Origin: Halostagnicola sp. A-GB9-2
GTDB lineage: Archaea > Halobacteriota > Halobacteria > Halobacteriales > Natrialbaceae
Direction: 5' to 3'
Assembly (NCBI RefSeq): GCF_030068615.1
Contig: NZ_JASJOC010000017.1
Location: 1-64,000 of the forward strand
DNA: 64,000 nt
Positions 1,885-35,858 of this stretch are shown here, one piece after another. The notes beneath the pieces are model-generated. The model saw nothing but the letters and a program-made list of their open reading frames with translations. It was not told the DNA's origin and did not search any database. A program made the position numbers and the translations under genes. Every line of letters starts with the position of its first letter. The stretch's first letter is position 1.

Positions 1885-1969
1885 CCTGGGACGTCGAGAT
1901 CCCTGTATCCATGAGGGGTTCGCAACCGGGGGACGCACAGCTGTCACTCAGGAACGCTCTTTTAACCGG

Positions 1970-2354
1970 TTAGCGAGTCAGGAACGAGTCGGAAATGATA
2001 AACGCGATCTCGTCGCGGGGCCGATTGAAGACGCCGACCATCAGAATGTCTACGGTCCATATCCCCTGGACCGTGCCCGACTCGTAGGGCAGGTCAGTAA
2101 ACTCCTCGAGAATGCCAGTCGCGATGATGCTTCGCCATCCCGCGTCTGTCTCGCCGTACACGACGAACGAGACGGGGTTGTCGACGATATCCTTCTTTCC
2201 GATCCCGAACAGGAACGAGAGTCGGAAGTAAAAGGTCTCGAGTTTGGAATCGTATCCGTACGAGACCGGGAACGACGCCAGTGGCTCGTCGCGTTCGGTT
2301 GCACAGGAATTCGTTGCGTTCGTCTTTCGACGGGTGGACCCACCACGTTAACAA
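1970..2354 (-). pseudogene. PPOX-type flavin-nucleotide-binding protein, broken
   Basis: This is a dead relative of the intact PPOX gene at 34758-35201. The intact gene reads SVVATGTLEELADAHPES and here the same place reads SIIATGILEEFTDLPYES; FERPRDEIEFHGF corresponds to FNRPRDEIAFIIS. The first residues (HPSKDERNEFL) are in one frame, then a deletion of about a dozen codons with a frame change removes the segment equal to GTGGIGVLSFATG. The rest continues in a second frame through ASFPVSYGYDSKLETFYF to the stop at 1970. PPOX proteins bind FMN or F420-like cofactors and often sit with Usp genes. Confidence 0.75.
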
Positions 2355-12757: not shown

Positions 12758-15628
12758 TTAGTACCGGTCGAAGTACCTGTCCTGAACCTTCACGAAGACG
12801 GCCATCAACAGGGCAAAGACTGCGGCTGCGATCGCGATCTGGGCCCAATGGACGAGTTCGAGCGGTTCGACGTCGAACAGCAGTTGCCCGGTCGGCGTGT
12901 AGAGGACGAGCAACTGCAACGTTACGGCGACGGCGACCGCGAGCACGAGCCAATTGTTCGAGAAGAGTCCGAGCCCGTACCGGTACCGAATCGCCTGAAT
13001 TCGGACGATCTCGAAGACGACGAATCCGGTAAAGACCACCGTCTGAGCAAGTCCGCGCCCCACTTCGTAGTCTGGACTCCAGCCGACCAGTGCGGCGGTC
13101 ACATCGTATCCAGGGACTAGTTCACCGTAGAAGTTGAGGGTAAACAGCGGCAACAGACAGACTGTCATAAAGAGCGCGATGCCGACGATAGACGTGATGA
13201 TCCGGTCGGTGATGACGCCTTCGTCGGGCGGGCGTGGCTCTCGGTCCATCACGTCGTCTGCGGCCGGATCGACGCCCATCGTCAGCGCGGGAATGCCATC
13301 GGTGACGACGTTGATCCAGAGCACTTGGATCGGCGTAATCACGAGTCCCAGGCCCGCCAGCGTCCCAGTGAAGATCATCGTCACCTCCCCGCCATTACCT
13401 GACAACAGATAGTTGACGAACTTGCGAACGTTGTCGAAGATGCGCCGGCCGCCCCTAACCGCGTCCCGAATCGTCGCGAAGTTGTCGTCCAGCAGGACGA
13501 TGTCGGAGGCTTGTTCCGTGACGTCCGTCCCGCGAACCCCCATAGCGACACCAACGTCTGCGTTTTTGACTGCTGGCGCGTCGTTGACGCCGTCTCCCGT
13601 CATCGCCACCGTGTGCCCTTTCTGCTGGAGTGTCTGGAGAATACGCGTCTTGTGTTCCGGCGACGTCCGCGCGAAGATATCGACGTCGTCGACCACCTCC
13701 CGCAACGTCTCGTCTCCCATCTCCTCGAGTTCGGGTCCCGTAATCACTGTTGCCGAGCGGAGTCCGACCTCCTCACCGACTGCCCGCGCAGTGATTGCGT
13801 TGTCGCCTGTGATCATCACGACGTTGATCCCAGCGTCGAGACAGCCCGCAAGCGCGTCCGTCACCTCGGGTCGAGGCGGATCGATCATTCCCTGCAACCC
13901 AAGAAAGACCATCTCTTGCTCGACGTCCTCATCTGGCTCCTGCGCCTGCGAATCAGGAACGTCGGGTCGGTACGCAAACCCCATCACGCGCAACGCGTCC
14001 GCCGCGAACCCCTCATTTTGGGTCTCGATCTCCGTGTGCCGTTCATCCGTGAGAGAGACGGTCTCGCCGTCGACGAGTTCCCGATTACAGTGATTGAGGA
14101 CGGTCTCTGGTGCGCCTTTCATGTAGGCGACCGTCCCGCTGTCAGGCGTCTCGTGGACGGTCGTCATTCGTTTGCGAGCCGAAGTAAACTCGACCTCCCC
14201 GATTCGGGGGTACCTCCCAGTCAGATCTCGGTGATCGAACCCAGCTTTCTGGGCGGCGACGAACAGTGCGATTTCGGTTGGATCGCCGAGGTAGGTACGC
14301 TCTTGGTCGGCGGACTCGTCTGTCGTAGGCCCGTCGCGTTCACGGATGCCGATGTCGACGTTGTTACAGAGCATCCCACAGTGCAGTACCTTGGCGACCC
14401 TGTCGGTGTCGACTGGCTCGTCGTCCTGTAGAAACTCCCCGTCGGTGTCGTAGCCGGTCCCGGTCACTGTGTATGTTTCACGGTTGGCGACGATCCGCTG
14501 GACGGTCATCTCCTCCTCGGTGAGTGTACCGGTCTTGTCCGTACAGATTACGTCGACCGAGCCAAGCGCCTCGACGATCGGAAGCCTGCGAACGAGAGCA
14601 TTCTGGTCGGCCATCCGGCGCGCCCCGAGCGCGAGCGAGAGCGTGACGACCGCCGGAAGCCCCTCAGGGACCGCCGAAACCGCGATGCCGACCGCCGTCA
14701 GGAAGACCTGCAGCGGCGGTGTGTCGCCGATTACCAGCTCGGTGATCGCGATGATCGAGACGATGCCGATGACTCCGAGCGCGATGAATTTGCCCAACCG
14801 GTCCATCTCCGCCTGGAACGGCGTGTCGCGCTCTTCGGCTTCCTCGAGGGCCGTCGCGATCTGTCCGATTTCGGACTCGGGGCCGGTCTCGACGACAACC
14901 GCCATCCCGGAGCCGCGCTCGACGACGGTATCCTTGTACAGCATATTCTCGCGCTCGGCCAGTGAGGTGTCCTCGTCGACCCGACCGACTGCCTTCGAGA
15001 CGCCGACGCTCTCGCCGGTCAGGGCCGCCTCGTCGACGCTCAGGTTCGACTCGTCGACGATCCGGGCGTCGGCGGGGACGATGTCGCCGGACTCGACGAA
15101 TATAACGTCGCCGGGCACAACGTTCGTCGCGTCGATTTCGGTCTTCTCGCCGCTGCGTCTGACCAGCGCGTAGGTCGTCGACATCTCCTTTAGCGCCTGA
15201 ATGCTCTGTTCGGCACGATAGTCCTGCAAGAAGCCGAAGGCGGTGATGAACAGGACGACACCCGCAATGACCCCAGCATCGATCACGTGGCCAACCGCTG
15301 CCATCACCGCCGCGGCGACGATCAACACCCAGATTAGCGCTGGCTTGAACTGCTCGACGAAGATTTGAAGTGGCGAAATTCCCTCCTCGGCTTCGATCTT
15401 GTTGGCCCCCTCGTACTCGAGACGCTCGCGTGCTTCAGCCAGATCTAGTCCTTCAGCCGAAGTCTCGAGACCGTCGTAGATCTCCTCGATCGGTCGCGAG
15501 TGCCAGTTCGTCGTGGCGCCAGGGTCGGCTCCCGTTCGCGCTCGATCTCGGTGTTGATTCTGCTCTGAGCGTGACACGTGTACAATTTCGATCCGAATTA
15601 GTTCGTAGTCGCTTCTCGCGTTCGTCAC
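12758..15628 (-). CDS. P2-type cation-transporting ATPase
   Basis: A 956-residue P-type ATPase. In order: N-terminal cation ATPase domain ([20 protein letters not shown]), actuator loop with the TGES motif in [14 protein letters not shown], membrane segment with [20 protein letters not shown] (the P2-type PEGLP calcium-site helix), phosphorylation motif DKTGTLT, nucleotide-site AYMKGAPE, and hinge [20 protein letters not shown], then six C-terminal helices. It hydrolyses ATP to move a cation across the membrane; PEGLP and overall length point to Ca2+ or Na+/K+ rather than copper. A GTG at 15577 (VSRSEQNQH) is an alternative start that removes 17 residues. Similar ATPases occur in hypoxia-induced gene sets in bacteria. 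Confidence 0.92.
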
Positions 15629-16585: not shown

Positions 16586-17017
16586 ATGTCACGATCGATC
16601 CTCGTTCCACACGACGGCTCGTCGAACGCGCAGGCTGCGTTCAAGTATGCTCTCGATACTTTTCCGAACGCCCAGATCATTCTCTTTCACGCGATCGATC
16701 CGTTCGAGGTGACGCCTGCTGACGAGCAGTTACCGGCGTTGACCGACGAATGGCTAGACGACCAGCGTTCGCGAGCGGCGCAACTCTTCGAGGACGCGCG
16801 GGGGGACCTCGGAGACGAGTACGAGACGGTCGACGTCGAGACCGAGACGGGAATTGGCTCACCAGCCCAGACTATCGTCGCCGCCGTCGACGGCACTGAC
16901 GCGGATCAGATCGTGATGGGAAGCAAAGGGCGGAGCGGCGCACCCGGGGCGCGAATGGGGAGTACGGCCGAACTCGTCGTCAAGCGCGTGGATGTTCCGG
17001 TAACGATCGTGCGCTAA
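16586..17017 (+). CDS. Universal stress protein, single domain
   Basis: A 143-residue Usp from the ATG at 16586 (MSRSILVPHDGSSNAQAAFK); the longer start at 16550 adds 12 residues before the first strand and is not needed. The nucleotide motif reads GSKGRSGAPGARMGSTAEL, keeping G-x2-G-x9-GS. The end VKRVDVPVTIVR is canonical. A long acidic helix (EWLDDQRSRAAQLFEDARGD) links strands 2 and 3. Convergent with another Usp only 21 bases away at 17039. Confidence 0.88.
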   Translation: MSRSILVPHDGSSNAQAAFKYALDTFPNAQIILFHAIDPFEVTPADEQLPALTDEWLDDQRSRAAQLFEDARGDLGDEYETVDVETETGIGSPAQTIVAAVDGTDADQIVMGSKGRSGAPGARMGSTAELVVKRVDVPVTIVR

Positions 17018-19178: not shown

Positions 19179-19402
19179 GAAATGGAATTCCGCGGTATCT
19201 GCTGGAGTGTCACCAAAAAAGTGCTCAGGACGGTTCCCGTTCCGAGGATTTCTATCAGGTGGACGATACAATCTCATTACATCGCATTTCAATCGGATTG
19301 AGCAGTCGACAGCAGTACGCCCGTCCTCCCAAAGCGACTTGACGCCAGTAGCGTCTGTCACCTCACCAATTGTTATCCGATAGGCCATGGTACGCAGGGG
19401 TC

Positions 19403-20758
19403 ATGGTTGACTTACGACCAAACGTCCTCTTGATCCACGCTCACGATCTCGGGCGCTACCTCGGCTGTTACGGCGTCGATATCGAAACACCTCGGATCGA
19501 TTCGCTCGCTGCGGACGGTGCACTGTTCGAACGCCACTTCGCGACTGCGCCACAGTGTTCGCCGAGTCGCGGCAGCCTCATAACTGGTCGTGTCCCTCAC
19601 GTCAATGGTCTCATGGGGCTCGCTCACGGCGACTGGGAACTCCACGAGGACGAACGAATCTTGCCCCAATATCTCACCGATGTCGGCTACGAAACGCACC
19701 TATTCGGGCTCCAGCATATCACACAAGATACGGATCGACTCGAGTACGATCACGTCCACTCGGAGGGGAACCTCTATCCGGGCGTCTCGCCCGCAGTTCA
19801 CCAGGCGAATCGTGCCCGCAACGTTTCGGCAGTCGTCTCGTCGTTTCTCGATGCATCGGCGTACGAGGAACCGTTTTTCGCGTCGATCGGGTTCTTCGAG
19901 TGTCACCGAGTCGAGGGGGACGACGGTCGATTCGGGTTCGACGCCGAGTACTACCAGGCCGACGATCCGGACGCGGTCCGACCGCTCCCGTACCTTCCGG
20001 ATCGACGAGGCGTTCGCCACGACCTCGCGGAAATGCGCGGGATGGTGTACGCCATCGACGACGCTGTCGGAACGATTCTCGACGCGCTAGCCGAGAACGG
20101 TCTCGACGAGGAGACGCTTGTGCTCTTGACGACCGAACACGGGATCGCGTTCCCGCGTGCGAAAGGAACCTGCTATGACGCGGGGATCGAAGCGGCGCTC
20201 ATTATGTGCTATCCGGGGGTTATCGATGCCGATGAACGATACGACGAACTCATCAGTAATGTCGATGTCTTGCCGACGATTCTCGATCTCACCGGGATCG
20301 AGATTCCCGAGGTAGTTGACGGAAAAAGCTTTGTCAGCCTGATCACCGATCGCGACGAAACGTACGTCGAGCGGGACCGAATTTTCGCCGAGATGACCTG
20401 GCACGATATGTACAATCCGGTTCGGGCCGTTCGAACGGATCGATACAAATACGTCCGGAGCTTCTGGCATCTTCCCACCGTCTACCTGCCGACGGACGTG
20501 TTTGCCAGTGAATCCGGCCGCGAGGTCCGCGAAACCGACGGCGTCCCGCCGCGCCAGTACGAGGAGTTGTACGACCTCCACGATGCACCCCAGGAGGATG
20601 ACAACGTCGTGTACGAACCCCGCTATCAGGACATTCGACAGGAACTCTCGCGGGAACTCTACGAGTGGATGGACGCGACCGACGATCCGCTCCTTGACGG
20701 TCCCGTCCTGCCAGGCGACTACGACGGTATTCAGTCGTGGCCGCACGAATCGGCGTAG
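19403..20758 (+). CDS. Sulfatase-like alkaline-phosphatase-fold hydrolase
   Basis: A 451-residue sulfatase-family protein. The start at 19403 (MVDLRPNVLLIHAHDLGRYL) is chosen because family members begin right at this strand. The catalytic box CSPSRGSLITGR near residue 53 has the cysteine that is turned into formylglycine in active sulfatases (C-x-P-S-R). Metal-ligand segments include TTEHGIAFPRAKGTCYDAGI. No signal peptide is present, so it is cytoplasmic. The C-terminal block LYDLHDAPQEDDNVVYEP is typical of the family. It faces the ADP-dependent sugar kinase, and a dead copy of the same pair exists at 34.3-34.7 kb, suggesting a real link with sugar-ester metabolism. Confidence 0.85.
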   Translation: MVDLRPNVLLIHAHDLGRYLGCYGVDIETPRIDSLAADGALFERHFATAPQCSPSRGSLITGRVPHVNGLMGLAHGDWELHEDERILPQYLTDVGYETHLFGLQHITQDTDRLEYDHVHSEGNLYPGVSPAVHQANRARNVSAVVSSFLDASAYEEPFFASIGFFECHRVEGDDGRFGFDAEYYQADDPDAVRPLPYLPDRRGVRHDLAEMRGMVYAIDDAVGTILDALAENGLDEETLVLLTTEHGIAFPRAKGTCYDAGIEAALIMCYPGVIDADERYDELISNVDVLPTILDLTGIEIPEVVDGKSFVSLITDRDETYVERDRIFAEMTWHDMYNPVRAVRTDRYKYVRSFWHLPTVYLPTDVFASESGREVRETDGVPPRQYEELYDLHDAPQEDDNVVYEPRYQDIRQELSRELYEWMDATDDPLLDGPVLPGDYDGIQSWPHESA

Positions 20759-21085: not shown

Positions 21086-22483
21086 TCAGCTCTCGCTCTC
21101 GTTCTCGCGCCCCTTCGCGACCGCGAGCTCGAGAAGGAAACTCGACGATGAGACAATGTCGCCGATCCCAACCGTCCCTACAGGATCCTCGACGACTCGA
21201 TTAGGACAGGCGGCGACCGTTGGAGTGTAGAGGACGCCGTCATCGGCCGTCTCGTCAAGGTGGTCCGCGAGGAGTTCGATCGCCACCCGACCCTTCGCTG
21301 ACGGTTCGTACTCCAGGCCAGTCTCGAGATCGCCGGGAGACGTAATGTCACCCAACGCGGCCTTCGTCGCGGCGTTGACGGCGGCAAACTCTAGCCCGCG
21401 CTCGACCGCCTCGGAAGGAAGATACGAGTCCATCACGGAGAGGTGATACTCCATCGCATGGAGTCGGAGACAGTCGACGCCGAGTTCGGCCCGGATCGCG
21501 TCGAGCATGCGGTAGTGAGTGAGGATTTCGTCGGACTCGAACGGGGTGTCTTCCGTCGGTTCCTTGTCGACGACCTCGAGGTCAGCGTCGTCGTAGAGGA
21601 GATTGAGTTCGTGCGTGTCCGCACCGATGACGTTCGCTTCCGGGAGGATCCACTTGTAGATGCTCTCACGGAGGTCGGCATCGTGTGTCACGGCGTACTC
21701 AATGTGGACTTTCAAATCGTCCTCGCTCCCCGATCGGAGTCTCCGAATGACCTCTCGGGCGTGACGGTGTGCCTGTTCGTAGCCCTCTTCGACGTGGTCG
21801 GGCGTAAGGTTGTGGTAACCGGCCAGCAACGCCCCGTCGACGACGTCGCCGACCTGATCGACATGCGTGTCGAGGTCGCCGGCGACGAGGTCGAACTCCG
21901 GGGGCCTCGAGGCAGCGATGAACCGGGTATCTTCGATCGCCGTGACGTCAAAGAGCTCGTCGCCGGTCCTGAACTCGAACACCCAGTTGATTTTCGTTCG
22001 GTCCGTGTTGACGGCCTCCTGAATCGGTACGGAGTCCACCTCACCGTCCTCGACCATCGGGTACGCCACTGCGTCGGGATGATCGAACATCGTGAGTTGC
22101 CTGTCTGAAAGCAGGTACGTGTACGTGACCGGCGACGCTCCCAGCGAGGAGACGAGATTGGTCATGATCCCCGTCTGGCCGCCCATCTGCTGGTTGTCGG
22201 GTTCGAATTCTGCTTCAAGGATGGCCGCGAATTCGTCCGTCATCGCGACTTCGTCGCCTCGTCCAGCCGCCATCGTGTGCGTGATCGCCGTCGCAAGGTC
22301 CCGTTTCGACGCCAGTGGACTCGACGGGTGGCGTTCGCCGGGTTCTGGCGGTCGCTCGAGGAACGCCTCCACGTCCTCGTCGACCCGGACGATTGCGTCG
22401 ACGTTAGCGTTGTACGCGACGAACACCGGCAGACCGTCTAGCGCTCGGATATCGGACTCTAGCTGGGCGTGATCGTCCACCAT
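21086..22483 (-). CDS. ADP-dependent glucokinase/phosphofructokinase
   Basis: A 465-residue member of the ADP-dependent sugar kinase family (ribokinase-like fold). The start at 22483 (MVDDHAQLESDIRALDGLPV) is preferred over a longer basic frame. Visible signatures: FVAYNANVDAIVRVDEDVEA at the sugar site, NQQMGGQTGIMTNLVSSLGA, LAGYHNLT, ANVIGADTHELNLL (NxxE-type Mg site) and the catalytic GIGDIVSSSSF near the C-terminus, where the aspartate is the general base. It phosphorylates glucose or fructose 6-phosphate with ADP; sequence alone does not decide which. Most haloarchaea lack this step and use a modified Entner-Doudoroff route, so its presence is notable. Confidence 0.87.
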   Translation of the reverse strand: MVDDHAQLESDIRALDGLPVFVAYNANVDAIVRVDEDVEAFLERPPEPGERHPSSPLASKRDLATAITHTMAAGRGDEVAMTDEFAAILEAEFEPDNQQMGGQTGIMTNLVSSLGASPVTYTYLLSDRQLTMFDHPDAVAYPMVEDGEVDSVPIQEAVNTDRTKINWVFEFRTGDELFDVTAIEDTRFIAASRPPEFDLVAGDLDTHVDQVGDVVDGALLAGYHNLTPDHVEEGYEQAHRHAREVIRRLRSGSEDDLKVHIEYAVTHDADLRESIYKWILPEANVIGADTHELNLLYDDADLEVVDKEPTEDTPFESDEILTHYRMLDAIRAELGVDCLRLHAMEYHLSVMDSYLPSEAVERGLEFAAVNAATKAALGDITSPGDLETGLEYEPSAKGRVAIELLADHLDETADDGVLYTPTVAACPNRVVEDPVGTVGIGDIVSSSSFLLELAVAKGRENESES

Positions 22484-22712
22484 GATATGGGGTGCTCCCA
22501 GTCCCAGAGAATTAATGCTATCTTCTATAAAATCGTTTGTGGTGGGTCGGTCGCAAGATCGGATCCCGGTCCGTCGTTCCGGAGTCGAGTGCACTCAGGG
22601 GGAGCGTCGGAGATAAACCGTCGGCGCGGCTAGCGCTCGCCCGTTGCTACGCGGACCCCAGTTTCGCCCCCCTGCAACTTATTTTCGTCCGCGTGGTCAG
22701 CACGGCAGAGCG

Positions 22713-26201: not shown

Positions 26202-26481
26202 CGGAGGATACTGACGGTACGAAGGCTGAAATAGGTATTCTAGCGATCGGAGAACGGGCCGACTCCATTGCGGCTGTTCGATTCCCGGACACACTGGCTT
26301 CGGTTGCATGTGCGAACGGTGGCTTTCGAGTCGCTACACGGATGAAAGGTTTACCACGAGCGTCGTGGGAGGTCACATCTGGGACCATCCCGGATCTGTA
26401 TGAGTACAAACCGACTAACGATTTACGCGACCGTGACACGATATCGGAGCCAAACGCCGTCTCTCGGGGGGATCTGAACCG

Positions 26482-27456
26482 ATGAAAGCCGTCGTCCTCG
26501 CTGGCGGATACGCGACGCGGCTGTGGCCGATCACGAGACACCGACCGAAGATGTTTCTCCCACTCGGGGAAACGACAGTCATCGAGCGTATCTACGCCGA
26601 ACTCGAGGGGGAAGCGCGCATCGATGAGGTCTACGTCAGTACGAACGAACGGTTCGCATCCGACTTCGAGACACAGCTGGGCGACAGCGAGTACGAGAAG
26701 CCGCGACTTTCGATCGAAGAGACCCGTGCCGAGGACGAAAAGTTTGGGGTTGTCGGCGCACTCGCTCAGCTGGTCAGGAGAGAGGATATCGACGACGATC
26801 TGCTGGTCATCGCCGGCGACAACATCTTCAACTTCTCGATCGGGGACTTTCTCGAGTACTACGATCGTCGGGACGCGCCGACGATCGCCGCCTACGACGT
26901 CGGCTCGCCGGAGCGGGCAACCGGCTACGGGGTCGTCGATCTCGAGGACAACCGCGTCGTCGACTTTCAGGAAAAGCCCGACGATCCGCCAGGGACCCGC
27001 GTTTCGATCGGCTGCTACGTGTTTCCCTCGGAGACGCTCGAGTTGCTACAGACGTACCTCGAGGAAGGCAACGACCCCGACGAGCCGGGCTGGTTCGTCC
27101 AGTGGCTCCAGTCGCGGGAGCCGACGTACGCGTACACGTTCGACGGAGCCTGGTTCGACATCGGCACGCGAGAGAGTTACCTCGACGCCGTCTCTTGGCA
27201 CCTCGACGGCGACTCGCGAATTGCCGAGTCGGCGACCCTCGAGGACGCGACGGTCAGATCGAACGTACACGTCATGGCGGACGCGACACTCGTCGACACC
27301 GAGGTCGAACGGGCAGTGATCTTTCCAAACGTGCGACTGGAGGCGACGAGTGTGCGCCAATCGATCGTCGACGAGAGTGCAAGTCTCGAGGAACTCGACC
27401 TACACGACGCGATGATTGGTGCGTTCACGCAGGTTCCCGGCGGGCCGAAGAGGTGA
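26482..27456 (+). CDS. Sugar-phosphate nucleotidyltransferase
   Basis: A 324-residue NDP-sugar synthase. The N-terminal signature is MKAVVLAGGYATRLWPITRH (GGxGTRLxPxT with alanine for the second glycine), followed by PKMFLPLGETTVIERIYAEL. The metal-binding aspartate lies in LLVIAGDNIF. The last 90 residues carry hexapeptide-like repeats of a left-handed helix (ESATLEDATVRSNVHVMADA and on). It makes an NDP-sugar from a sugar 1-phosphate and NTP. Next to a TreT-type trehalose synthase, an NDP-glucose product is likely. A dead copy of its first codons lies at 33905-33991. Confidence 0.88.
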   Translation: MKAVVLAGGYATRLWPITRHRPKMFLPLGETTVIERIYAELEGEARIDEVYVSTNERFASDFETQLGDSEYEKPRLSIEETRAEDEKFGVVGALAQLVRREDIDDDLLVIAGDNIFNFSIGDFLEYYDRRDAPTIAAYDVGSPERATGYGVVDLEDNRVVDFQEKPDDPPGTRVSIGCYVFPSETLELLQTYLEEGNDPDEPGWFVQWLQSREPTYAYTFDGAWFDIGTRESYLDAVSWHLDGDSRIAESATLEDATVRSNVHVMADATLVDTEVERAVIFPNVRLEATSVRQSIVDESASLEELDLHDAMIGAFTQVPGGPKR

Positions 27457-32848: not shown

Positions 32849-33712
32849 CTATTCGCCCGCGTCGAGCGTCGACTCAAGACGATCGATCAATTCGGTGTTA
32901 CCGACGTGCAGGGGAATCCGGTCGTGAAGATCAGTTGGTTCGACATCGAGGAGTGATTGGGTACCATCGGAGGATCGGCCACCGGCCGTCTCGACAATGT
33001 AGCCGATCGGGTTCGCCTCGAACTGGAGTCGTAGCTTGCCGTTGGGACTATCTTCAAGGGCGGGATAGGCGAAGATGCCGCCGTGTATGAGGACCTGATT
33101 GACGTCGTTGATCATCGCCCCGCTATAGTGGAGTTCGAGTTCGGTCTCGATTTCGCTGGCGAACTCGCGGAATACATCGGTCCAGTTGGGGACGCGCCCG
33201 CCAAACCCGTAGACTCGCGGCGTCTCGGGAAGCGTGCTATTCTCAGTAACGACGCTTCGCTCACCGCCTATAATTTCGTACTCAGTCACCGTATCGTCGC
33301 GAGCACATACCATGGTGGTTATCGGACCGTAAATTACGTACCCTGCCGCGACGAGGGCAGTGCCACGGGCGGGCAAGGGTTCGTCGTAGATTCCAAACAC
33401 CGTCCCGAGTGGGTTATTCGATCGGAGGTTCGACGTGCCATCGAGGGGATCGATAGCGACGGACAGAGCACCATCACCGTGATTCCCGACTGCCGTTCGT
33501 TCCTCACTCGCGTACTGTGCGACCCCATCGATTGCCGAGAGGCGTTCTGCCAGCAACTCGTCGGCATACACGTCGGCCTTGGCCTGAATCTCACCGCTCG
33601 GGTTTTCGTTCCCAGCTGTCTCTCGTCGGCCGACGAACCCCTGTCGGATGTCGCTGGTCGATCGGGCGATCGTCGCGATTATCTGATCAGTAGTTGAATC
33701 GATATCGGTCAT
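32849..33712 (-). CDS. fbp: Fructose-1,6-bisphosphatase, class I
   Basis: A 287-residue class I fructose-1,6-bisphosphatase. The metal/phosphate motif reads AIDPLDGTSNLRSN (DPLDGSSN in most members, T for S here). Others: ASEERTAV at the first metal site, GFGGRVPNWTD, HYSGAMINDVNQVLIHGGIF (the sugar-phosphate loop, GAMVADVHRTL in others) and KLRLQFEANPIGYIVETAGG. It removes the 1-phosphate of fructose bisphosphate in gluconeogenesis. It precedes gap and pgk on the same strand, with 225 bases between. It opposes the ADP-dependent kinase step, so the window carries both directions. Confidence 0.93.
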   Translation of the reverse strand: MTDIDSTTDQIIATIARSTSDIRQGFVGRRETAGNENPSGEIQAKADVYADELLAERLSAIDGVAQYASEERTAVGNHGDGALSVAIDPLDGTSNLRSNNPLGTVFGIYDEPLPARGTALVAAGYVIYGPITTMVCARDDTVTEYEIIGGERSVVTENSTLPETPRVYGFGGRVPNWTDVFREFASEIETELELHYSGAMINDVNQVLIHGGIFAYPALEDSPNGKLRLQFEANPIGYIVETAGGRSSDGTQSLLDVEPTDLHDRIPLHVGNTELIDRLESTLDAGE

Positions 33713-33904
33713 ATGCAGAGTGTAGCATCGGCGGTCTCTCCCTCGTAGATACCCTGACCACGGTCGTGATCCATCGTCAGGATCGGTATCGGTTCGTTTC
33801 GGGCGATCGTAGTGTTATGGAAGGGTACCATCCATCGAAGGTCCCACAGTTGGGTATATATCGTTGACGGTCATTTTGGTTGGGCAAACAATACATCAGC
33901 ACGA

Positions 33905-33991
33905 ATTTATCGAGGGCCACTTCGGAAGTCGGTTTCTGGCGATCGGCCACAGTCAGGTCGCGTATCCGCCGGCCAAGGCGACGGCTTCCAT
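33905..33991 (-). pseudogene. First codons of a sugar nucleotidyltransferase, dead
   Basis: From an ATG at 33991 the minus strand reads MEAVALAGGYAT, a TGA, then LWPIARN, against MKAVVLAGGYATRLWPITRH in the intact gene at 26482. The arginine codon CGA has become TGA. The match extends upstream of the start (GATCTGAATCCATG here, GATCTGAACCGATG there), so this is a shared ancestral locus, not chance. After about 25 codons the similarity ends. Confidence 0.75.
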
Positions 33992-34295
33992 GGATTCAGA
34001 TCACCGCGGAAGGGACGCTCGTAGTTGGTGTCGTCGTGATAACTGTGCGACTCAGTGGAACGCTCAAGGCCACCGAGATCAGTACGTGTCTCGCCGTCGA
34101 TTGCTGGCCATACTCGCAGTCCTCTGTGGTGGTTCCTACCGACGGCTCCCGCGACCGCGGTAGTAAACCGTTCATCGGTATCGATGGCCTGGTTCTCATC
34201 GTCCGGTCGTCGTTCGAACGCCGTACGCTAACTCGCTGGGTCCGGTAGTGAGACCCACTATGGACTTTTCGAGCGCGTAATTTGAATCCTGCCGC

Positions 34296-34470
34296 CGAGC
34301 GCTGGATGAGGTTCCAGAGTTCGTCGCATACAACGCGACCAGCCGGGTCGGCGAGGAACTCGAGTCATTGCTTGAGGGGCGGCCGAACCCGCGTGCGGGA
34401 CGCCATTGAGGCCGCTGGACTCGAAGCGGAAACTCGCTGCGACGAACGCGAAGGAGACACGTAGCGATCG
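34296..34470 (+). pseudogene. N-terminal fragment of the ADP-dependent sugar kinase
   Basis: The frame reads RALDEVPEFVAYNAT, then SRVGEELESLLEGRPNPRAG, against RALDGLPVFVAYNANVDAIV and RVDEDVEAFLERPPEPGER in the intact gene at 22483. A TGA follows, then in another frame PLDSKRKLAAT, against PLASKRDLATAI. Four codons are deleted after YNA. Only about 60 N-terminal residues survive. Confidence 0.75.
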
Positions 34471-34531
34471 ATCGTGGACGACGGCTCGCTCCGACCTCAG
34501 GTCGATCGAAAGCAACGCGCCGGTCAAGCGC

Positions 34532-34710
34532 GTCGAGATCGATAATTTCGTCGTAATCGCCCAGAACGATGGATTTGTCGAGTAGCGGATCGGCAGTCGC
34601 GACCATCCACCCGTAAAGTTGCACCGAGAGGTCCAGTCGCACGTCTGATAGCACGGTTCGTCGACGACGTTGTCGTCCTCCTTTGGTGCGTCCCGGATGT
34701 CGTCCCGAGA
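34532..34710 (-). pseudogene. C-terminal fragment of the sulfatase
   Basis: The frame reads DIRDAPKEDDNVVDEPCYQ, against DLHDAPQEDDNVVYEPRYQ in the intact sulfatase near its C-terminus. After a frame change it continues LSVQLYGWMVATADPLLDKS, IVLGDYDEI, against LSRELYEWMDATDDPLLDGP, VLPGDYDGI. Only about the last 60 residues survive. Confidence 0.78.
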
Positions 34711-34757
34711 GGCGATCGAGGCCTCTGCGTGACGTTCCCTGTTCAATCGATCGTTGC

Positions 34758-35201
34758 TCAGTCCGGGACACTCTTTCGGCCTGTCAGCTTGTCGGGATCG
34801 AGTCGAAAGCCGTGGAACTCGATTTCGTCCCGCGGTCGCTCGAAGATGTCGACTGTGGGAATCCGGACCGCCCACATCCCCTGTACAGCGACCGATTCGG
34901 GATGCGCATCGGCCAACTCCTCGAGGGTACCGGTCGCGACGACGCTGCGCCAGCCGTCGTCAGTTTCGGCGTACGTCACGAACGACACTGGATTTTCAAT
35001 GACATCGTCTTTGCCGGTCCCCGGGGGAAACGAGAGTTGGAAGTAAAACGCCGCGTCGGCCGCGTAAAACCCATACGAGACTGGGAGCGACGCCGGAGGC
35101 TCGTCCGGCCCAGTCGCGAACGAGAGGACGCCGATCCCGCCGGTACCCAGCAAGTCGTTGCGTTCGGCTTCGGTCAGGTTCGTCCAGCGGAGTCCTGTCA
35201 T
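34758..35201 (-). CDS. PPOX-type flavin-nucleotide-binding protein
   Basis: A 147-residue split-barrel flavoprotein of the pyridoxamine 5'-phosphate oxidase-like superfamily. Blocks: LTEAERNDLLGTGGIGVLSF at the N-terminus, PPASLPVSYGFYAADAAFYF, NPVSFVTYAETDDGWRSVVA (the cofactor-contact strand) and EIPT-like end FERPRDEIEFHGF. It likely binds FMN or F420 and dimerises; the substrate is unknown. A dead relative lies at 1970-2354, and a second intact member, distant in sequence, lies on the opposite strand at 35367, making a divergent pair. Confidence 0.85.
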   Translation of the reverse strand: MTGLRWTNLTEAERNDLLGTGGIGVLSFATGPDEPPASLPVSYGFYAADAAFYFQLSFPPGTGKDDVIENPVSFVTYAETDDGWRSVVATGTLEELADAHPESVAVQGMWAVRIPTVDIFERPRDEIEFHGFRLDPDKLTGRKSVPD

Positions 35202-35366: not shown

Positions 35367-35858
35367 ATGACGATCAACGAACTCACCGACTACGGCATGG
35401 AACGGATGACGGACGAAGAAATCGAGCAGTTTCTCGGGACCCGAAGCCTCGGTATCATCGGCTTACCGACGGGGGAGGCACCCTACTTAATCCCGATGTC
35501 GTACGGATACGACGGAGGATCGACGCTGTACTTCATCTACGTTGTCGGGTCTGAGAGTCGGAAAGCGACTCTCTCCGATCAGGCCGATACCGTCAGTTTC
35601 CTCGTCTACAGCGCCGAGACGATGTTTCATTGGCGAAGCGTCCTTGCAACGGGGTCGTTACGCCAGCTCTCGGAGGACGAGCTATCGACAGTCTCCGACG
35701 CTCAGACCCCCATCTGGCGGCCGGAACTCCTCGAGGCGGCGAGCGAAATAGAGTCGACTCGGGTCTACGAACTGACGGTCGACGAGTGGACGGGAATTCG
35801 ACACGCGATCGAACCTCCGACGTTCGCCCAGCGCTCGAGTCGGGAGCAATCGAATTGA
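35367..35858 (+). CDS. PPOX-type flavin-nucleotide-binding protein, second type
   Basis: A 163-residue split-barrel protein starting MTINELTDYGMERMTDEEIE. The core LGTRSLGIIGLPTGEAPYLI, PMSYGYDGGSTLYFIYVVGS, TVSFLVYSAETMFHWRSVLA and GTRVYELTVDEWTGIRHAIE-like end place it with the same superfamily as the 34758 gene. The long upstream frame is a shadow and not used. Bacterial homologues of this shape are found in hypoxia and dormancy regulons. It has its own 165-base upstream region, divergent from the other PPOX gene. Confidence 0.85.
   Translation: MTINELTDYGMERMTDEEIEQFLGTRSLGIIGLPTGEAPYLIPMSYGYDGGSTLYFIYVVGSESRKATLSDQADTVSFLVYSAETMFHWRSVLATGSLRQLSEDELSTVSDAQTPIWRPELLEAASEIESTRVYELTVDEWTGIRHAIEPPTFAQRSSREQSN

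Follow-up and report, generated by a model that had tools for sequence, protein, structure and literature searches.

The block of broken genes at positions 33918-34703 of the Halostagnicola sp. A-GB9-2 window (the whole 64-kb stretch of DNA analysed, from a 74,227-bp contig of a genome in 38 contigs) is, with a probability of roughly 0.8, the wreck of a second, divergent (xenologous) version of a gene cluster, kin to those of Natronococcus jeotgali and of a Halopiger xanaduensis plasmid and not to the intact cluster 6 kb away. Three broken gene pieces are collinear with that intact cluster, and the kinship of the sulfatase piece and of the region upstream of the nucleotidyltransferase (NT) piece matches that of the two flanking oxidase genes. 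Fossils of this sort, collapsed xenologous clusters, are nothing out of the ordinary; the scar of a lost aldolase gene beside it is the more unusual lead.

Three broken genes in cluster order

The intact cluster occupies 19.4-29.8 kb of the window and consists of genes for a sulfatase (19370..20758, plus strand, PF00884), an ADP-dependent (ADP-specific) kinase of the glucokinase/phosphofructokinase family (21086..22594, minus strand, PF04587), ppsA (pyruvate-water dikinase, a name taken from the annotation of the Natrialba magadii counterpart), a PiT phosphate transporter, an NDP-sugar nucleotidyltransferase, here NT (26482..27456, plus strand, PF00483), a universal stress protein and a TreT-like glycosyltransferase. 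In the fossil, the start of NT (minus), the start of the kinase (plus) and the C-terminus of the sulfatase (minus) follow one another, each broken, as a sequence-only reading of the window had observed. Once flipped, this order is collinear with the intact genes at 19.4-27.5 kb, and all three pieces lie on the minus strand relative to their intact counterparts (blastn, tblastx).

The significant nucleotide and translated alignments to all three intact genes bear out that observation. When 33700-34900 is compared with the rest of the window by blastn, the sulfatase 3' end (34549-34703) aligns with 20571-20726 (77%, E 6e-28), the NT start plus 17 bp upstream (33928-34008) with 26465-26545 (81%, E 1e-16) and the kinase start (34295-34444) with 22289-22448 (68%, E 8e-7), the last match reaching 34230 by tblastx. 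A weak fourth match, upstream of NT, pairs 34146-34179 with 26338-26371 (E 0.78). Searched against the whole genome, the sulfatase and NT pieces each have a single match (E 6e-26 and 5e-15; next best 0.008), and the own-kinase match is absent from the list; the kinase piece matches other genomes better than its own (G023, E 1e-16; G016, 2e-12; G017, 1e-12).

The NT remnant (33918..33991, minus strand) retains the start codon at 33989-33991 and about 21 codons, includes an in-frame stop and loses homology at about 33918. The region upstream of it (33992..34226, minus) abuts the kinase leader. The kinase remnant (34230..34445, plus; E 5e-17 against locus L040) comprises the leader and, from the start codon on, about 50 codons; a stop lies ahead of the kinase core, and there is a small deletion. 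The sulfatase remnant (34544..34703, minus) covers codons about 402-454 of 462 (~55 codons) and changes frame near 34645. The pieces are short (160 bases for the sulfatase, about 180 for the kinase, 76 for NT), and in the gaps around 34446-34543 and 34226-34300 a search for leftovers gave no convincing match. Several genes of one cluster are thus each broken and still in cluster order, which is the arrangement of a pseudogene block.

Conservation of the stretch for a function, for example as a regulatory region or an RNA, is very improbable. The similarity to N. jeotgali, 80% over 299 bases including the NT start, would suit such a function, the upstream region being about as alike as the coding piece. 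However, all three pieces carry stops or frame changes, and Rfam gives no match at E up to 1 in 33600-34900. The fossil also changes 7 of the 93 sulfatase columns that are invariant in 11 functional copies, all of them in the first or second position of a codon. When any one functional copy is set against the other ten, 0-3 changes fall at these positions and 0-6 in all, the fossil sequence compared being short.

Kinship of the remnants and of their flanks

The sulfatase tree (23 rows, including a very distant one, L036, 15112, that was marked as a long branch but kept in) groups the fossil with N. jeotgali (G006) and plasmid pHALXA02 of H. xanaduensis (G027) with support 97/93, and rejects a pairing of the fossil with the own sulfatase (AU p=0.014). 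Three sulfatases of other genomes are closer to the piece than the own copy, and one more is marginally closer. In the kinase tree (33 rows) the fossil sits on a long branch near neither the N. jeotgali kinase nor the own one, and its pairing with the latter is not rejected (p=0.087); in identity to the piece, the own kinase takes 19th place among 32. The NT coding piece, with its 76 bases, is uninformative for kinship (one row, L109, was left out of the identity count). The kinase and NT coding pieces do not, then, decide between the own and another lineage.

In the region upstream of NT, the 233 bp before the start codon match N. jeotgali and pHALXA02 and not the own intact neighbour: among the 31 places compared the scores are 214 for N. 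jeotgali, 97 for pHALXA02 and 31 for the own locus, the last equalling the maximum over 100 shuffles. The sequence-only reading had taken upstream bases shared with the own NT as a sign of common descent. The own upstream region may differ from the fossil through an insertion of PiT rather than through lineage.

The flanks agree with the sulfatase piece and the NT upstream region. Oxidase 1 (34758..35201, minus strand) and oxidase 2 (35367..35858, plus) are intact pyridoxamine-oxidase-like genes, PF12900 being found in oxidase 1 and in the ORF containing oxidase 2, and in the trees both are sister to the corresponding Halopiger plasmid genes (97/93 and 97/99). Oxidase 1 stands directly before the sulfatase in three relatives (G083, G138 and G027; gene order in L029, L070 and L071); in the window its neighbour is the fossil, and the intact cluster has no such gene beside it. 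Its 3' flank (34704..34757, minus) aligns with the Halopiger plasmid (L029) down to 34710, the start of the sulfatase remnant. Since the flank meets the remnant where the plasmid alignment ends, a single deletion would have joined the two, with its joint at about 34703-34710. Elsewhere in the window, at 1944-2308 (minus), lies a second, partial relative of oxidase 1 with about 69% DNA identity and a stop near the end of the tblastx match.

Origin of the fossil

The sequence-only reading had held that the neighbourhood was present twice and that one copy collapsed. This stands insofar as there was a second instance of the three-gene neighbourhood, which internal deletions collapsed; that the fossil is a copy of its intact neighbour is not supported. 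An inverted duplication within the genome, followed by collapse of one copy with loss of ppsA, PiT and most internal sequence, would place collinear pieces 6 kb from the intact genes as found, and the kinase tree is compatible with it. It would also leave the remnants nearest to the own intact genes; neither the sulfatase piece nor the NT upstream region is, and these two, together with oxidases 1 and 2, are nearest to another lineage. Because the sulfatase tree, the NT upstream region and both flanking oxidases point to the N. jeotgali/Halopiger lineage, the fossil is probably not a recent inverted duplicate; we consider the duplication origin unlikely. The loss of ppsA and PiT was an assumption: relatives vary between kinase and NT, so neither gene need have been in the fossil cluster.

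It is hardly credible that the pieces were assembled by separate illegitimate insertions without ever having belonged to one cluster in this genome. Mixed origins might be read from the kinase piece, which seems nearer to a different group of kinases than to the N. jeotgali or own kinase; yet the three pieces are collinear, on the correct strands and next to the correct flanking gene, and the NT upstream and sulfatase pieces share the same nearest genome, in which both are adjacent.

For the xenologous second version, the following course of events may be proposed. A second version of an accessory sugar-phosphate cluster, in the flipped order oxidase 2, oxidase 1, sulfatase, kinase, NT, would have come to share the genome with the first; at least one of them presumably arrived horizontally, and either could have been first. 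Once two divergent versions had met, one would have been redundant and may have decayed for that reason. Internal deletions would then have taken out the bulk of the sulfatase, the kinase body and everything of NT except its start, with gene ends and the NT upstream region surviving between an intact oxidase 1 and the unit of aldolase scar and fbp.

Prokaryotic pseudogenes have been interpreted as failed horizontal transfers (PMC522871). The fossil resembles the cases in the part of that study drawn on here in that broken genes have kin in other lineages and adjoin an intact counterpart; unlike them, it is a block of three genes that decays, and a divergent version of the cluster stands intact next to it. 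The sulfatase-NDP-sugar synthase locus of pHALXA02 (NC_015667) has the oxidase pair in the same order, the same kind of sulfatase and the same NT upstream region, but its genes are intact and the Halopiger genome is without the kinase. Since a metabolic cluster that is accessory in haloarchaea occurs here in two divergent versions, of which one is decaying where it stands, an apparent duplicate next to an intact copy should not be called a duplication without kinship tests.

Distribution and decay of the cluster in relatives

The cluster is accessory and patchy, and has decayed repeatedly within the Natrialbaceae. The kinase occurs in 48/125 family genomes, once in 47 of them and twice in G079. 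Since every other genome of the 125-genome family set has at most one kinase, none of them can carry the entire cluster twice in intact form. By RpoB identity the congeners G001 and G003 are closest to this genome (98%); both are devoid of the kinase, as is G004, and G002 has it. The cluster lies on plasmids in Halopiger, Natrialba magadii and Natronosalvus. None of the 17 further window proteins scanned matched a transposase or plasmid replication family.

Gene content and order also vary. The order in pHALXA02 is oxidase 2, oxidase 1, sulfatase, NDP-sugar synthase, universal stress protein, glycosyltransferase, with no kinase anywhere in the genome, and in N. jeotgali the kinase is on the other side of the sulfatase. 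The interval between kinase and NT, in which fbp or other genes may be present too, includes ppsA and PiT in G138 and G085, ppsA without PiT in G083 and G029, and PiT without ppsA in G015 and G132; it is reduced to a short divergent spacer in G017 and G024. Natronosalvus rutilus (G145, L077) combines sulfatase, kinase and NT with an aldolase and has neither ppsA nor PiT in between. No genome seen unites the exact order predicted for the fossil cluster with its kinship, and none with both versions intact was seen among the 125 family genomes, 392 order genomes and genome_contigs, where the queries were the fossil DNA, kinase, NT, sulfatase (whole or C-terminus) and fbp only.

Remnants are found in other relatives. 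G013 (L030, 10168-10341) carries a sulfatase 3'-end remnant, codons 403-460, beside an intact kinase. Its break at codon 403, nearly that of the fossil, was considered as a shared event and set aside: the preceding sequence differs and the G013 kinase is whole, so that coincidence or a deletion-prone spot would explain the agreement. Around the intact stress-protein and glycosyltransferase genes of G022 (L075) lie a remnant of the NT 3' end and a fragment of fbp with 89% identity (14261-14386, 16839-16931). Salinadaptatus G015 (L032, 8427-8549) has an oxidase 1 3'-end remnant directly before the sulfatase, a further decay step in the cluster.

The aldolase scar upstream of fbp

The fossil adjoins an intact fbp gene for fructose-1,6-bisphosphatase (32849..33712, minus strand, PF18913 and PF00316), which in relatives is preceded by an aldolase of the DeoC/LacD family (PF01791). 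Between fbp and the NT remnant, positions 33718-33872 match the upstream region, start and end of such an aldolase. This scar includes a 40-codon ORF (33709..33831, minus) that begins at the aldolase start and closes with a TGA overlapping the start of fbp. Among the fbp loci of the best 30 of 121 genomes with a match, own included, 25/30 have a whole aldolase upstream and 5/30 a scar, namely this genome, G132, G138, Salinadaptatus halalkaliphilus (G015) and Natrialba magadii (G029). In all five scars an ORF opens at the aldolase start and ends at a stop whose position ranges from 7 bases ahead of the fbp start to 1 base inside it, and both other frames are closed. A TATA-like run is located about 24-30 bases before the start codon.

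In the fbp tree G130, which has an intact aldolase, falls between this genome and the other four scar genomes (96/81), which suggests two collapses; a single clade of the five is not rejected (p=0.16). Dinucleotide shuffles leave the scar frame open in 239, 314, 280, 103 and 556 of 1000 cases (10-56% per scar). Random in-silico deletions over six genes leave it open in 63-98% of draws, so that an open ORF alone is weak evidence for a retained leader.

The scar ORFs are perhaps retained translation-coupling leaders, a reading with modest support, which comes from Haloferax volcanii: when the upstream gene was given a premature stop, translation of its downstream partner was lost in 9/9 overlapping pairs (PMC6728339). 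In haloarchaea, a gene whose start overlaps the stop of its predecessor may require translation of that predecessor in order to be translated itself. As in those pairs, the stop of the scar ORF overlaps the start of fbp; unlike them, where in the part considered the upstream partners are genes, the partner here is a gene cut to 40 codons and the coupling is putative. It is a tentative proposal, and one we hold rather doubtful, that the aldolase could be lost only by deletions that spared its promoter and start codon and kept a frame open from there as far as the fbp start. What had been an enzyme gene would then have been turned into a short leader for coupling, and this probably happened two times or more, once in this genome and once in the Natrialba magadii/Salinadaptatus group; the collapses at this locus would have been shaped by what must stay. 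The four comparable scars of the other genomes, each with an open ORF, lie at loci L158, L159, L160 and L181. Together the scars suggest a testable rule for how tightly coupled operons of archaea lose genes.
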